DNA from: an uncultured Pelagibacteraceae bacterium
GTDB taxonomy: Bacteria; Pseudomonadota; Alphaproteobacteria; Pelagibacterales; Pelagibacteraceae
NCBI GenBank assembly: GCA_902611145.1
Contig: CACLYO010000006.1
Coordinates: forward strand, 1-64,000
DNA length: 64,000 nt
Direction: 5' to 3'
Shown here piece by piece: positions 8,667-17,046 of the stretch (position 1 is the stretch's first letter; every line of letters starts with the position of its first letter). The position numbers were made by a program, and so were the translations under genes. The notes under the pieces were generated by a model that saw only the letters and a program-made list of their open reading frames with translations, did not search any database and was not told where the DNA came from.

Positions 8667-10700
8667 TTAACTTTCTGTACCTGTTTTTTTTGATTGAATT
8701 TTAATACTTCTACATTCTGACATTGTTTTAGATGCTCTGGCTATCACATTTGAATAATAATAATCATTTAAATCTAAATTAATTTTTTCCTCTATAAAAT
8801 CTAATTCATATATATTTTTTGAATCTTCAATATTTTTTTTTAAATTTAAATAATTCATCATACTGTCAATTAATTCATCTTTATTTTTAAATATTTTTTT
8901 TCTTTTTAATAATTCAGCCAAATCATTCAGTATTGACCAATCTTCTTTTGCATCACCAGGTGGGTATGTGGCTTGAAATGCTTTTTGCATTTTTCCTTCT
9001 AAATTCATATAGTGACCCTCTTGTTCAGTATATGTTGCGCCAGGTAAAATTAAATCAGCTAATTCAGCACCTTTATCTCCGTGACTTCCAATATAAACAA
9101 TGAATTCATTTTGTTTTTTAAAATTTATATTATCTTGACCAAGTAAAAATATAACTTCAAAATTATTTTTTTGTAACTCTTCAAGAACTACATTTCTCCC
9201 ATTATTAGAACTTAATAAATCTAAATCATAAGCACCAACTGTAGAGGCATTTTCTGAAATAATATTTAAAGAATTCCATACAACGTTAATTTTTTTTTTT
9301 GAAACTAAAAAATTTTTAAGACTTTCAAAGATATACTTTCCAGATTTCAATTTAAGAGCTGACTGACCAATTACAACCATTGGTTTTTTTGCATTAATTA
9401 TTTTATTACTAATTTCATGGTTGTTCTCGCAAATATCTTTAATGATTTTGGAACTATTTGATAGAACTTTGTAAGGATAAGTAAGGTCTCCTAAATCTCC
9501 TACTGAGTAAATTTCTGTTTTATTTTTTAAAAAAGATTTTCTAATTCTTGCATTTAAAATTGTTGCTTCATATCTTGGGTTAGTTCCGACTAAAATTATC
9601 AAATCACTTTCTTCGATACCATTTATTTTTGAATTAAATATGTAATTAGACCTAATATCATTATTTACATAAACATGATCTGATCTAGATTCTAAATTTT
9701 TAGATTTTATTGTTTTATCAAAAAATTCTTTAACTACATACATGGTTTCCATATTTGACAAGTCACCTGTAAAACATGCAATTTTTTCTGGTGATGTTTT
9801 GTTAATTTTTTTTACAAGAATTTCATAAGCAGTTTTCCACGAAATTTTTTTAAGTTTTGTACCTTCTTTAAAATATGGTGTATCTAATCTTTGGTTTTTT
9901 AACCCATCACATGCATATCTAGTTTTATCTGATATCCATTCTTCATTAATATCCTCATTAATTTTTGGTAATATTCTTTTAACTTCCCATCCATAGGTAT
10001 CTATTCTTATATTGGAACCGACAGCATCCATTGCATCAATTGATTCTGTTTTTTTTAATTCCCATGGTCTTGCTTCAAAAACATAAGGCTTTGATGTTAA
10101 AGCTCCAACTGGACATAGGTCTATAACATTTGCTGACAGTTCAGATTCCATCGCTTTTTCTAAATAAGTAGTGATTTGCATATTTTCTCCACGTCCTATT
10201 GCTCCTAACTCTGTCACTCCAGCAACTTCTGTTGCAAATCTAATACATCTTGTGCAATGAATGCATCTTGTCATTTGTGTTTTTATCAATGGTCCCATAT
10301 ATTTTTCTGGAACTAATCTTTTATTCTCTTTAAATCTTGACTTATCAATTCCATAAAACATTGATTGATCTTGTAAATCACACTCTCCTCCTTGATCACA
10401 TACTGGACAATCTAAAGGGTGATTTGCTAATAAAAATTCCATTACTCCTTTTCTTGATTTTTCTACTAATGGAGTATTTGTTTTTATATTCATTCCTTCT
10501 GCTGCTGGCATTGCACAAGATGCAATTGGCTTTGTTGATTTCTCCAATTCAACTAAACACATCCTGCAATTTCCTGCTATTGAAAGTTTTTCATGATAGC
10601 AAAATCTTGGTATTTCAGCACCAGCTTGTTCACAGGCTTGTAGGACTGTTAAACCTTCTTCGACTTCAATATCTTTGTCATTAACTTTTAACTTAAGCAT
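8667..10700 (-). CDS. nuoG: NADH-quinone oxidoreductase subunit G
   Basis: Large iron-sulfur subunit of the NADH-oxidising arm (677 residues). The N-terminal 2Fe-2S ferredoxin domain has [15 protein letters not shown], followed by the His-Cys3 site [18 protein letters not shown] and the ferredoxin motif [10 protein letters not shown]. The rest is a molybdopterin-oxidoreductase-like fold without molybdopterin, with [19 protein letters not shown] near the C-terminus. The N7-type cluster seen in some bacteria is not apparent. The start overlaps nuoF by 8 nt. Confidence 0.96.
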
Positions 10701-12024
10701 TTTCTTTTTCTAATAAATGTTGATCTATTAAATATGGAATATTTTTATTTCTATTAACCATAGGATTAAAATTGTTTCTTTTAATTACTTCCTTTTTAAA
10801 ATGTCTTAATAATCCTTGAACAGGCCATGCTGAACCTTCCCCAAACGCGCAAATTGTATGACCTTCTATTTGTTTTGTTACATCCATGAGCATATCAACT
10901 TCTTCTCTCGATGCTTCACCTTTGGTCATTCTTTCAAGCATACGCCACATCCATCCAGATCCCTCTCTACATGGTGTACATTGTCCGCAACTTTCATGTT
11001 TATAGAATCTTGCTATTCTAGCCATACATTTAATTATATCTTGATCTTTATTTATAACTATTATTCCAGCGGTTCCTAAACCACTCTTCTGCTCTACCAA
11101 TGAATCAAAATCCATTTTTATTGTGTTGCAAATTTCTTTTGGTAGTAAAGGCATTGAAGATCCACCAGGTATTACTGCTTTTAAATTTTCCCAACCTCCA
11201 ATAACTCCACCTGCGTGTTGTTCAATTAAATCTTTTAAAGGCACACCCATTTCTTCTTCAACATTACAAGGGTTATTTACATTGCCAGAAATACAAAAAA
11301 TTTTAGTACCAGTATTTTTAGGTTTTCCAATGCTTGCAAACCATTTAGCTCCTCTCCTTAAAATAGTCGGCACAACCGCAATTGTTTCAACATTGTTAAT
11401 TATAGTTGGACATCCATATAAACCTATTAGTGCAGGAAATGGTGGTTTCAATCTTGGTAGTCCTTTTTTTCCTTCAAGACTTTCTAATAAAGCTGTTTCT
11501 TCCCCACATATATAAGCTCCAGCTCCATAATGAATATAAATATCTAAATCCCATCCTGTGTCAGAAGCGTTTTTACCAATTAATTTCTTTTCATATGCTT
11601 CATCAATTGCTTTTTGAAGTTTTTCTCCTTCATTAAAATATTCGCCTCTTATATAAATATAACATTTGTGCGCGTTAACAGCGTAAGAAGTGATCAAACA
11701 TCCCTCTATAAGTTTATGTGGTTCAAATCTTAATATATCTCTATCTTTACATGTGCCAGGTTCAGATTCATCAGCATTTATTACTAGATAATGAGGTCTT
11801 GAACCAATTTCTTTAGGAGCAAATGACCATTTTAAACCAGTAGGAAAACCGGCACCTCCTCTTCCTCTTAATTCAGAAGATTTGATTTCATTAATAATCC
11901 ATTCTCTACCCTTTGAGCAAATTTCTTTAACGTTTAACCAGTCACCTCTTTTTTGAGATGACAAAATATCAACTCCAAAATCGTTATAGAGATTTTTAAA
12001 AATTCTATCTTTATCTTCAAGCAT
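10693..12024 (-). CDS. nuoF: NADH-quinone oxidoreductase subunit F (NADH/FMN site)
   Basis: Binds NADH and FMN and holds cluster N3; this is the entry point for electrons. The 443-residue protein has the nucleotide-binding motif [16 protein letters not shown], the FMN segment [15 protein letters not shown] and the cluster ligands [13 protein letters not shown], plus a later cysteine in the HTICAFGEG segment. It overlaps nuoE by 8 nt and nuoG by 8 nt. Length and motif order are standard. Confidence 0.97.
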
Positions 12025-12625
12025 TTTTTGGTTCCATTAAAGTTTTTCTATCGTGTTCCGGTTCTGAATTAGTTCTACCTCTATATGATCCAGCTTTAGG
12101 TGTTTCACCTTTTAATGTTTGATCAATTATTTTTTCTAATTTTTCACGATCTAAATCTTCATAATAATCATTATTAATTTGTATCATTGGTGCATTTGCA
12201 CATGCACCTAAACATTCAACTTCTACCCAAGAACAATTTCCATTTTTTGATAATTCATTTTCTTTTTCAGAAATTTTAGATTTACATAGATCAACCAATT
12301 TATAGGCACCTCGAAGCATACATGGTGTAGTGGTACAAACTTGATAATAATATTTTCCTACAGGAGCTAAATTATACATTGAGTAAAATGTAGCAACTTC
12401 ATAAACTTTTATATAAGGCATATTTAAATATTTAGCGATATATTTCATTGCTGCTAGTGGTATCCAATTATTATTTTGACGTTGAGCAATATAAAGAAGA
12501 GCCATAACAGCACTTTGTTGTTTATCCTCGGGATAATTTGAAATTATTTTTTTTGCAGCATCAACATTTGCTGAACTAAATTCAAAACTATCAGGTTGAT
12601 CTTCTGCTATTTTTTTAATACTCAT
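12017..12625 (-). CDS. nuoE: NADH-quinone oxidoreductase subunit E (N1a 2Fe-2S)
   Basis: Thioredoxin-fold 2Fe-2S subunit partnering NuoF. The cluster ligands are in [11 protein letters not shown] and [10 protein letters not shown] (two plus two cysteines). The 202 residues include a helical N-terminus ([24 protein letters not shown]) and a polar C-terminal tail of about 35 residues rich in charged residues, as in other alphaproteobacteria. It overlaps nuoD by 4 nt and nuoF by 8 nt. Confidence 0.96.
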
Positions 12626-13797
12626 CTATCAATTTCTCCAAAAACAATATCTAAAGATCCTAAAACAGCAGGAACATCAGCTAACATATGGCCTTTAATT
12701 AAATAATCCATTGCCTGTAAGTGAGAAAATCCAGGAGCTCTAATTTTACATTTATAAGGCTTACTTGATCCGTCAGAAATTAAATAGACTCCAAATTCTC
12801 CTTTTGGAGCCTCAACAGCTGTGTATATTTCATCCTCATCAACTCTATATCCTTCAGTAAATAATTTAAAATGATGAATTAATGCTTCCATCGACTCTTT
12901 AATAGCTTTTTTGCTTGGAGGAGTAATTTTTCCGTCAAAAGATTTGATTGGTCCTTTAGGCATTTGATCTAAGCATTGATTTATAATTTTCACACTTTCT
13001 CTCATTTCCTCAATTCTACAGAGATATCGATCATAACAATCACCATTTTTACCAACAGGAATTTTAAATTCCATTTGCTCATAACAATCATAAGGTTGAG
13101 ATTTTCTAAGATCCCAAGGAACATTTGATCCTCTTAGCATTACTCCTGAAAAAGAATAATCAAGTGCATCTTGTTTTGTTACTATTCCAATATCAACATT
13201 TCGTTGTTTGAATATTCTATTATCAGTTAACAAAGTTTCTAAATCATCAATAATTTTTGGAAATTTAGTTGCAAATTTAGAAATATCTTCATCTAAACCT
13301 CTTGGTAAATCTTGATGAACACCGCCAGCTCTAAAATAATTAGCATGTAATCTTGACCCTGAAACTCTTTCATAAAATGTCATTAAAGTTTCTCTTTCTT
13401 CAAAACCCCAAAGTGAAGGTGTTAAAGCGCCTACATCTAAAGCGTGTGTTGTAATATTTAAAATGTGACTTAAAATTCTTCCAATTTCACAAAACATAAC
13501 TCTAATAAATTGTGCTCTAATAGGTACTTCTATTTTTAAAATTTTTTCTATTGCTAAAGCAAAAGCATGTTCTTGATTCATTGGAGCCACATAATCTAAT
13601 CTATCAAAATAAGGAATGGCCTGGATATATGTCTTATTTTCTATTAATTTTTCTGTACCTCGATGAAGTAAACCAATATGTGGATCAGCTTTTTCTACAA
13701 CTTCACCATCCAGTTCAAGTATTAACCTTAAAACCCCATGTGCTGCTGGATGCTGTGGTCCAAAATTTAAATTTAATGTTTTTGATTTTTTTGTCAT
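12622..13797 (-). CDS. nuoD: NADH-quinone oxidoreductase subunit D
   Basis: 49-kDa-type subunit that forms the quinone headgroup pocket with NuoB; 391 residues. The opening [22 protein letters not shown] contains the HPAAHG loop with the quinone-binding histidine, and [14 protein letters not shown] follows. The C-terminal [37 protein letters not shown] is diagnostic. It overlaps nuoC by 1 nt and nuoE by 4 nt. NuoC and NuoD are separate genes, unlike the fused E. coli form. Confidence 0.97.
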
Positions 13798-14387
13798 TAT
13801 TTTTTGGTTTGTTCTTTAATATATTTCGTTCCTTCCCACGGGCTTTCATAATCAAAATTTCTATAATTTTGTTCTAATTTAACTGGTTCATATATAACCT
13901 TTTTTTCCTCTTCACTATACCTAACCTCGGTATGTCCAGTTAGTGGAAAATCTTTTCTTAAAGGATAACCATTAAAATTATAATCAGTTAATATTCTTCT
14001 TAAATCTGGATGGTCTTTGAATTGTATACCATACATATCAAAAACTTCTCTTTCCATCCAATTAGCTGCGGGATAAATTTTTGTTAATGATGGTGTTATT
14101 TCATTTTCGTTGATAAAACTATCTACTATTATACGAGCATTAAATTCGTGGCTTAATAGTAAATAAACTAACTTAAATCTTTTTTCATTTTCTGGATAAT
14201 CTACTGCTGTAATGTCTATTAATTGCTTAAAATTAGTATTTTCATTATTTTTTAAAAAAAGAATAACATCTGTAATATCATTGCTATCAATGTTTAAATA
14301 AATTTGATTATTTTTAATTTTTGATGAATTTATTTTAGTGTTTAATTCAGAATTAATTTTTTTTTCTAATTTTTGCAATAACTCCAT
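13797..14387 (-). CDS. nuoC: NADH-quinone oxidoreductase subunit C
   Basis: 30-kDa-type structural subunit of the peripheral arm, 196 residues. The signature [24 protein letters not shown] and the following [15 protein letters not shown] are the family hallmarks. The N-terminal 60 residues are variable and rich in Asn/Lys. It follows nuoB by 6 nt and overlaps nuoD by one base. Confidence 0.97.
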
Positions 14388-14393
14388 AATTTT

Positions 14394-14915
14394 TTATCTC
14401 TCTAAAGATCCGCTATTACGAATCTTTTTTTGTAATTGCAAAATTCCATAAAGAAGTGCTTCTGCAGATGGTGGACATCCTGGAACATAAATGTCAACTG
14501 GTACTATTCTATCGCAGCCTCTAACAACAGAATAAGAGTAATGATAATAGCCACCACCATTAGCACAACTACCCATAGAAATAACGTATCTGGGTTCTGG
14601 CATTTGATCATAAACTTTTCTCAAAGCTGGTGCCATTTTATTAGTTAAAGTCCCTGCTACGATCATAACATCAGACTGCCTAGGTGATCCTCTTGGTGCA
14701 GCACCAAATCTTTCTAAATCATATCTAGGCATAGAAGTTTGCATCATTTCAACTGCACAACAAGCCAAACCAAAAGTCATCCAATGTAACGAACCTGTTC
14801 TTGCCCAATTAACAAGATTATCAAAAGATGTTGTTATAAAACCTTTGTCGGCAAAATCTTTTGCCAATTGTTTAAATTCTTCAGGTATTTTTTTTTCTTT
14901 TTCTTCGATTTGCAT
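14394..14915 (-). CDS. nuoB: NADH-quinone oxidoreductase subunit B (cluster N2)
   Basis: Carries cluster N2, the last iron-sulfur centre before quinone. The tandem cysteines are in [12 protein letters not shown], with further ligands in [29 protein letters not shown] and the [14 protein letters not shown] motif. 173 residues is normal length. It lies 4 nt after nuoA and 6 nt before nuoC. Confidence 0.97.
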
Positions 14916-14919
14916 GATT

Positions 14920-15288
14920 TTATTCCCAATCTAAAGCACCCTTTTTCCATTCATAAACAAAACCAATGGTTAAAATAAATAGAAATATCATCATTGAAAC
15001 AAATCCAAATAAACCAATTTTTCCTAATGAAATTGCCCAAGGAAATAAAAAAGCTATCTCTAAATCAAAGATAATAAATAATATAGCTACCAGATAGAAC
15101 CGTACATCAAACTCCATACGTGAGTCATTAAAAGGTTCAAAGCCACATTCATAAGCTGAAAGTTTTTCTGGATCTGGTTTTTTAGGTGAAAAAATAAAAT
15201 TTAAAAACACAAAGGCTACGCTTAACCCTAATGCAATGATTAAAAATATTATAATTGGCAGATAATCTTTTAAAAAATCTATAGCCAT
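14920..15288 (-). CDS. nuoA: NADH-quinone oxidoreductase subunit A
   Basis: First gene of the complex I operon; small three-helix membrane subunit (122 residues). [43 protein letters not shown] is partly recognisable as the conserved loop and helix 2, including the cysteine loop that senses the active/deactive state in related enzymes. The 98 bp upstream to tRNA-Asp hold the likely operon promoter and the palindrome listed at 15366-15380. No clear -35/-10 pair could be fixed because the leader is nearly all A/T. Confidence 0.96.
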
Positions 15289-15365
15289 TTAATTATATAT
15301 ATATATTTATTTAGTGTAATTGTAAGCGACGTTATAGTCACATTTTACAGTATTTTCTTTTTTAT

Positions 15366-15380
15366 TGATAATTATTATCA
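15366..15380. promoter_or_regulatory. Perfect 7-1-7 inverted repeat of Fur-box form upstream of nuoA
   Basis: The sequence TGATAATTATTATCA is a perfect heptamer inverted repeat around one base. It equals the minimal 7-1-7 recognition motif described for Fur-family regulators (TGATAATnATTATCA). It lies 78 bp upstream of the nuoA start codon and just beyond the 3' end of tRNA-Asp. It is not followed by a T-tract on the minus strand, so a terminator is less likely. Function is inferred from the motif and position only. Confidence 0.5.
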
Positions 15381-15386
15381 TAAAAA

Positions 15387-15463
15387 TGGCGGGAGTGACG
15401 GGACTCGAACCCGCGACCTATCGCGTGACAGGCGATCGCTCTAACCAACTGAGCTACACCCCC
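15387..15463 (-). tRNA. tRNA-Asp (anticodon GTC)
   Basis: Reading the minus strand gives a complete cloverleaf of 77 nt including an encoded CCA. The acceptor stem GGGGGTG pairs with CACTCCC (one G-U), the anticodon loop CTGTCAC places GTC at 34-36, and the T arm carries GGTTCGAGTCC. It is 6 nt downstream of tRNA-Val on the same strand, so the two are probably one transcript. Confidence 0.97.
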
Positions 15464-15469
15464 GTTTTT

Positions 15470-15545
15470 TGGTGGGCAGTAAAGGACTCGAACCTTTGAC
15501 CCCCTCGGTGTAAACGAGATGCTCTACCAACTGAGCTAACCGCCC
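15470..15545 (-). tRNA. tRNA-Val (anticodon TAC)
   Basis: A 76-nt cloverleaf with encoded CCA on the minus strand. The acceptor stem GGGCGGT pairs with ACTGCCC (one G-U), the D arm is AGCTCAGTTGGTAGAGC, the anticodon loop TTTACAC gives TAC, and the T arm is GGTTCGAGTCC. It lies 55 bp downstream of the TPR gene and 6 nt upstream of tRNA-Asp. Confidence 0.97.
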
Positions 15546-15600: not shown

Positions 15601-17046
15601 TTACTTTTTAAGGTCATTTTCAATATCATTAAAAACTTCTTCCCAGTTTCCTTCCTTTTTTTGACGATAAATTATAAAACTTGGATACCAAGGAGAATTT
15701 TTTTTTTCTGATAACCATCTCCACTCAGAATTTTTCTGCAGAATTAAATATGTTTTTTTTCCTAAAGCACCTGACAAATGAGCAATTGATGTATCAGAAG
15801 TAATAATTAAATCTAGATTTTTCATTATTGCAGCTGTATCAACAAAGGGTGCCTCTTCATCAAAATTTTTAAAAGTATTCAATTTAAATTGATTTTCATT
15901 TTCTTTAATTTGTTCTAATCCATTAATTTTTTGTAAACTAAATAATTCAACTTCTTTTAATAATGAAATATTTTTAAAATTATTAAGTTTAAATGATCTA
16001 CCTTTAAACATAGAAACTGATCCTGATTCCCAGTTAATTCCAATATTAATTTTTTTCTTTTCAAATAAATTTTCCCATCTCTTTACTCTTTCTGCATTAA
16101 AATTAAGATAAGATGAATATTTTGGTATATTTTTTATATGATTAATATTTAATTTTAAAGGTAAAGACATTAAAGGGCAGCAATAATTAAATTCAGGAAT
16201 TTTATCTCCTTTTGCATAAATATTTTTAAAATAAGAAGTTTCTTGAAACAGTTTAACTAAATTTTTATCTACTTCGATAAATACTTTTGCTCCTAACTCC
16301 TCAATTATTTTTGCAAATCTTATAAATTGAATTTGATCCCCAAGTCCTTGTTCACCATAAAGTAAAATAGTTTTATTTTTTAGATCTTGTTTTCCATCCC
16401 AAACTTCACGATCAAAATATTTTTTTTGATTTAAAAAAAATTTAGTTTTCCATCTCCATTCATAATTTTTCCATCCATCTTCAAAATTTTCTAATTTAAG
16501 TTGGATTAATGATTTAAAAAAATACGATTCAGAATATTGATTTATTTTAATAGACCTATCAAAATAACTTATACTTTCTTTTGTTTTGCCTTGTAAATTT
16601 TTTACCACAGCAAGGTTGTGGAAAGCTTTATAGTGTTTGGGATTAATTGATATAACTTTATTAAAATATTTTTCTGATTCTTCTAATTGATTCATCTCTT
16701 TATAAAGATTAGCTAGATTAAATAATGCATTTAAGTTGTTATTAATATCTATAGATTTTAAATAATCTTTTTTAGCTTTTTCAATATCTTTTTTTTTAAA
16801 AAAAACTATACCTCTGTTTGAGTAAGCTTCTGCATCATTATCATCAATGCTTATACACCTATCTAATAAATCTAATGCTACATCATAATTTTCAAAACTT
16901 ATCTCTATTGAAGATAATAATCTTAAAATTTGTGAATTATTAGGATGTATTTTAATAAGATTTAAATAAATAATTTTAGCTTCATTTAATTTATTTTTTT
17001 TATGTAGTTCAACAGCTTTTAAAGCTTCTTTGTTGAAATAATCCAT
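15601..17046 (-). CDS. TPR-repeat protein with C-terminal glycosyltransferase-like domain
   Basis: A 481-residue protein of two parts. Residues 1 to about 200 are tetratricopeptide repeats (for example YSNRGIVFFKKKDIEKAKKD and LANLYKEMNQLEESEKYF), which form a helical protein-binding scaffold. The remainder resembles GT-B-fold glycosyltransferases of the heptosyltransferase (GT9) or OGT-like type: LLYGEQGLGDQIQFIRFAK near 230, then INIGINWESGS, and DLIITSDTSIAHLSGALGKKTYLIL near 415-445, the nucleotide-sugar-binding region. No signal peptide or membrane segment. Such TPR-GT proteins are common in marine alphaproteobacteria; the substrate is unknown. It stands alone between lon and tRNA-Val. 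Confidence 0.75.
   Translation of the reverse strand: MDYFNKEALKAVELHKKNKLNEAKIIYLNLIKIHPNNSQILRLLSSIEISFENYDVALDLLDRCISIDDNDAEAYSNRGIVFFKKKDIEKAKKDYLKSIDINNNLNALFNLANLYKEMNQLEESEKYFNKVISINPKHYKAFHNLAVVKNLQGKTKESISYFDRSIKINQYSESYFFKSLIQLKLENFEDGWKNYEWRWKTKFFLNQKKYFDREVWDGKQDLKNKTILLYGEQGLGDQIQFIRFAKIIEELGAKVFIEVDKNLVKLFQETSYFKNIYAKGDKIPEFNYCCPLMSLPLKLNINHIKNIPKYSSYLNFNAERVKRWENLFEKKKINIGINWESGSVSMFKGRSFKLNNFKNISLLKEVELFSLQKINGLEQIKENENQFKLNTFKNFDEEAPFVDTAAIMKNLDLIITSDTSIAHLSGALGKKTYLILQKNSEWRWLSEKKNSPWYPSFIIYRQKKEGNWEEVFNDIENDLKK

Follow-up and report, generated by a model that had tools for sequence, protein, structure and literature searches.

A selectively conserved, predicted Fur operator upstream of the complex I operon in SAR11

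Results

A Fur-type palindrome between tRNA-Asp and nuoA

The window analysed here is a 64,000-nt stretch of SAR11 DNA that carries a complex I operon on its minus strand. The first gene is nuoA (14920..15288), identified from the ORF list and NCBIfam. Its top NCBIfam models are NADH-quinone oxidoreductase subunit A, with scores below the curated cut-offs. Named from their translations, nuoB (14394-14915), nuoC (13797-14387), nuoD (12622-13797), nuoE (12017-12625) and nuoF (10693-12024) follow on the same strand, tightly packed over 10693..14915 with overlaps or gaps of a few bases. On the other side of nuoA lie tRNA-Asp (gtc; 15387..15463) and tRNA-Val (tac; 15470..15545), both also on the minus strand. 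A 481-aa ORF that resembles tetratricopeptide-repeat proteins (15601-17046) separates tRNA-Val from lon. In L008 and most other relatives, the end of lon is immediately followed by the tRNAs.

Between tRNA-Asp and nuoA, motif search and conservation mark the sequence TGATAATTATTATCA (15366..15380, no strand assigned) as a predicted Fur-type 7-1-7 operator. It matches all 14 specified bases of the 7-1-7 Fur box TGATAATNATTATCA, which is reportedly the Bacillus subtilis Fur box described by Baichoo and Helmann in 2002, a work that Hogle et al. (2016) cite. The 3' end of tRNA-Asp (15387) is 6 bp away and the nuoA start codon (15288) 77 bp away. The first-pass annotation had pointed out an exact palindrome here, next to tRNA-Asp and upstream of nuoA, and is right on each of these; the distance of 78 bp that it gave to nuoA is not.

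This site is the single exact match to TGATAATNATTATCA in the window and also in the whole 1.13-Mb genome (1,125,476 bases), where a reversed control pattern gave no further matches at zero mismatches. Over 140 permutations of the half-site, exact matches averaged 0.09 per genome and 0.014 in its intergenic DNA, which puts the palindrome far above chance. When up to three mismatches are allowed, the window holds 23 matches against 22.5 by chance, so the exact match is the only informative one. The genome has 6 intergenic sites of at least 12/14 where permuted half-sites average 3.2, and 3 of at least 13 where they average 0.22. The first count is unremarkable and the second is remarkable. Such sites lie before nuoA (14), before sfuC (a tandem pair scoring 13 and 12), in the region that separates iscR-suf from a divergent hydrolase-like gene (12/14), and at three more places with no evident link to iron.

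The box is conserved at nuo across SAR11

We compared 69 SAR11 regions upstream of nuoA, one from the window and 68 from relatives within the 80 top matches. A site of at least 12/14 is present in 41 of the 69, and one of at least 13/14 in 32. Permuted half-sites at the same regions gave a median of 0, the best of them reaching 11 and 1 at these two thresholds. Non-conservation, raised at the outset as a possible objection, thus does not hold. Mean information is 1.88 bits over the box positions, excluding the centre, and 0.75 and 1.10 bits in the flanks. The Fur-type box at nuo is selectively conserved across SAR11.

The remaining 28 loci, among them one entire clade of 12, have no site of at least 12/14. 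Loci with the box occur in both main SAR11 branches, deep branches included, and on a maximum-likelihood tree the presence of the box requires 8 to 11 changes. The simplest reading of this distribution is an ancient nuo box in SAR11 followed by repeated losses. No comparable site was seen in the nuoA loci examined outside SAR11. In a deep SAR11 clade (L065-L072, L087), the last 60 bp before nuoA hold a hairpin-like repeat, for example CCTCAAACTACGGTATTGAGG, whose arms seem to covary.

The same motif marks iron uptake and Fe-S assembly operons

Across 101 genomes the exact palindrome has 60 matches and the reversed control has none. Each of the 60 was placed from the ORFs that flank it. Some 29 precede sfuC, for the Fe(III) transporter binding protein, 8 precede nuoA (window included), 10 overlap the start codon of hemB in a group of related genomes, and 2 precede a 60-aa Cys-rich protein; the remainder are scattered or within genes. 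We named sfuC for its similarity to the Pelagibacter gene and for its position, NCBIfam giving only weak ABC substrate-binding matches, and iscR is named after its best NCBIfam model, below that model's cut-off. In 12 genomes, a degenerate pattern, TGANAAYNRTTNTCA, has intergenic matches at sfuC, nuoA, iscR, hemB and the 60-aa protein, with one exception (L101, G009); its other matches are inside genes. Boxes of at least 12/14 stand before sfuC in 30/30 loci, mostly as arrays, and before iscR in 18/27. A look at other iron genes, as first proposed, therefore finds the motif at the iron-uptake (sfuC) and Fe-S assembly (iscR-suf) operons. At fur itself, no 7-1-7 motif that would point to autoregulation was seen.

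Close before iscR, over its likely promoter, L225-L251 share a conserved ATACTTGACTATTTTAGTCGGGTAT, which we take to resemble the IscR type 1 site of E. coli. We rejected hemB as a general target: its exact matches overlap the start codon in related genomes, and the 300 bp before hemB show no enrichment. In L252-L256, L260, L276, L278, L280, L346 and L362, HemB starts MIIT, not MIT, and TGA[TG]A before the ATG completes a Fur box over the start codon. Such a box could serve as an operator coupling haem synthesis to iron, or could arise as a side effect of the codons.

The nuo box thus shares its motif with sfuC and iscR-suf, two operons with a reported iron response in Pelagibacter. In the iron-limitation study of that organism, sfuC rose 16-fold and the suf genes about 2-fold, and the main text makes no mention of nuo (PMC2864753).

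Position of the box relative to candidate promoters

In 43 loci the elements GTGAC, CTTC and TATATA precede nuoA at fixed or nearly fixed distances. In the window these conserved columns correspond to GTGAC (15337..15341, minus strand) and to a putative core promoter, CTTACA-N17-TATATA (15298..15326, minus strand), which would start transcription near 15291. If CTTCAN-N17-TATATA is the promoter, the transcript would begin close to the ATG and the box centre would lie near -80. The G[CT]GAC element also recurs in relatives before nuoA, sfuC, iscR and, on the other strand, hemB; it is rare before katG and fur, and genome-wide it is not enriched over permutations.

We consider it quite probable that the nuo palindrome is a Fur operator bound by iron-loaded Fur (Fe-Fur). 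Given such a site, we lean towards activation. With plentiful iron, Fe-Fur would activate nuo from a box about 80 bp upstream of the putative start and outside the putative core promoter, and with scarce iron nuo transcription would fall, sparing iron. At sfuC, where boxes stand in arrays close before the gene, Fe-Fur would instead repress uptake. Activation is favoured by the position of the nuo box and by precedents in Neisseria, Caulobacter and Gluconacetobacter.

The main rival is repression by Fe-Fur at the same site, which we regard as unlikely. Fur could cover a -35 hexamer lying in the box, or its dimer could block read-through from the tRNA genes. From the putative start the geometry would be of the Neisseria type, but a promoter-like TTATCA-N18-TAAAAT (15371-15342, minus strand; 9/12) overlaps the box. 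Many relatives have TTATCA-N18-AATAAT, and in many loci the box hugs the tRNA end (4-7 bp). Against this, GTGAC...CTTC-N17-TATATA nearer nuoA is better conserved and persists in loci that have no box, and the tRNA leaves hardly any room for the upstream promoter in L052 and L058. Shutting down complex I when iron is plentiful would also make little physiological sense. Activation from the upstream box therefore remains our preferred reading.

Fur is the likely reader of the nuo box

Three Fur-family proteins are encoded in the genome: a canonical Fur next to miaB, Irr next to a fabA-like gene and katG, and Zur within the znu cluster. Since boxes of this family resemble one another, the nuo site might instead belong to Zur or to Irr, acting like Irr or PerR. 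Beside irr, katG carries TTAGAAT-N-ATTATAA or close variants in 27/27 loci (L406-L433; C4:18637 in the genome of the window). In this sister box, positions 2 and 14 are T and A, not G and C. From its position, and from its likeness to what we take to be the known Irr box, we infer that Irr reads it. A similar but weaker Irr/PerR-like box is seen at a peroxiredoxin gene, and an exact TTAGAAT-N-ATTATAA stands before the gene of an 83-aa membrane protein (C5:30836). The gap before the znu genes holds another perfect palindrome, TGTTATAATATAACA (C10:37219-37233), probably a Zur box.

The nuo boxes follow neither pattern. All 19 distinct ones have G and C at positions 2 and 14, none has the Irr/PerR-type T/A (TTAGAA or TTATAA half-sites), and they differ from TGTTATAATATAACA, the znu comparison being that of one genome. 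Fur, Irr and Zur thus appear to have three different boxes, and that at nuo is of the Fur kind.

The proteins differ as well. SAR11 Fur is identical to Magnetospirillum Fur at 77/130 positions. Structures of the latter on DNA show Arg57 contacting the conserved G, and an R57A mutant showed no DNA binding (PMC4506495). SAR11 Fur, with TVYR, retains the Tyr and Arg that recognize the conserved T and G, whereas SAR11 Irr has TVYN and lacks the G-reading Arg. The first-pass annotation had held that family specificity could not be told; with the Irr/PerR- and Zur-type palindromes of this genome differing in sequence, it can now be narrowed towards Fur. On the strength of the katG and znu palindromes, Fur is the likely reader at nuo, and a site for Irr, PerR or Zur there is disfavoured to the point of being quite improbable.

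The box belongs to nuo and has the pattern of a protein site

In 14 loci, window included, the start of the box lies 39 bp from GTGAC, while its distance to tRNA-Asp varies between 7 and 39 bp. The box is also present in L062 and L079, where no tRNA was found ahead of nuoA. The fixed spacing on one side, the variable spacing on the other and the retention of the box where no tRNA is found link it to nuo, not to the tRNA. In other clades 4-10 bp separate the box from the tRNA and 101-221 bp separate it from nuoA, this second distance being 126-221 bp in several clades. Its spacing to the putative nuo promoter is not constant in all clades.

Downstream of the tRNA, the palindrome can form a weak hairpin rich in A and T; it sits tight against the tRNA in many loci, and might on these grounds act as RNA, ending or trimming the tRNA-Asp transcript. 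Positions 1-3 and 5, together with their partners, are the same in all 19 distinct nuoA boxes; positions 4 and 12 vary without compensation and are paired in 8/19. This is the pattern of a protein site whose two half-sites are read separately, not of an RNA stem. Terminator prediction at the nuo palindrome found none, and no T-run follows it. The same motif moreover precedes sfuC and iscR, and the box is kept in the two loci with no tRNA found. We therefore rejected an intrinsic terminator or tRNA trailer, there being no GC-rich stem, T-run or compensatory arm changes, and regard an RNA role as highly improbable.

A chance match in AT-rich DNA would be in line with the ordinary number of weaker matches in the window and of intergenic 12/14 sites in the genome, but conservation at nuo across SAR11 and the 60 exact matches against none for the control rule it out for practical purposes.

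Discussion

In support of the first-pass interpretation, the conserved, predicted Fur site before the operon of iron-rich complex I suggests that the SAR11 cell probably ties complex I, its largest iron-consuming machine, to iron supply. We tentatively put forward a minimal SAR11 Fur regulon of sfu uptake, suf assembly, complex I as a sink and, in some clades, hemB. The same Fe-Fur would repress uptake and directly activate complex I from the upstream box. Iron sparing would thereby be built into the nuo promoter without a RyhB-like small RNA, in an arrangement that would be old and repeatedly lost, possibly with iron niche.

SAR11 bacteria, the most abundant group in the ocean, rank among Earth's most numerous heterotrophs and possess very few regulators. 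If Fur sets complex I, the balance between respiration and light-driven energy from proteorhodopsin in the surface ocean would be tied directly to dissolved iron. The Fur regulon reported for SAR11 would widen from uptake to the main iron sink. The nuo box, which varies among SAR11 clades, also offers a simple sequence marker.

Bacillus subtilis is a distant organism, yet its Fur box TGATAATNATTATCA has all 14 specified bases in common with the nuo box; recognition by SAR11 Fur is predicted. Closer to SAR11, a fur box is predicted before nuoA-N of Gluconacetobacter diazotrophicus (PMC9368920). Both are predicted boxes before an alphaproteobacterial nuo operon, the former from a single genome and the SAR11 box with conservation across the lineage. 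In Caulobacter crescentus, another alphaproteobacterium, much of the nuo operon is down in low iron and without fur (PMC3751524). Control by iron and Fur is established there and predicted in SAR11. Most activated Caulobacter genes, however, had no detected box (three sites in the group), whereas the SAR11 nuo box is explicit and conserved. In Neisseria meningitidis, the boxes of Fur-activated genes, nuoA included, are located about 100 bp ahead of the start, and those of repressed genes cover the promoter (PMC3788343). The SAR11 box would likewise lie well upstream, at about 80 bp from the putative start; binding and activation were shown in Neisseria, an unrelated lineage, and are predicted from sequence in SAR11.

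Within SAR11, Steindler et al. (2011) did not find a classical Fur box in strain HTCC1062. Hogle et al. (2016) reported the same 7-1-7 motif in the same organisms before Fe(III) transporter and FTR1 genes; their main text deals with iron uptake genes only and leaves nuo unmentioned (PMC4771312). Leaving aside Rodionov et al. (2006), who treat the iron regulons of alphaproteobacteria, a Fur box before nuo is new for SAR11 as far as the literature shows. Switches of this kind are known in other bacteria, and nuo is a new target for one in SAR11.
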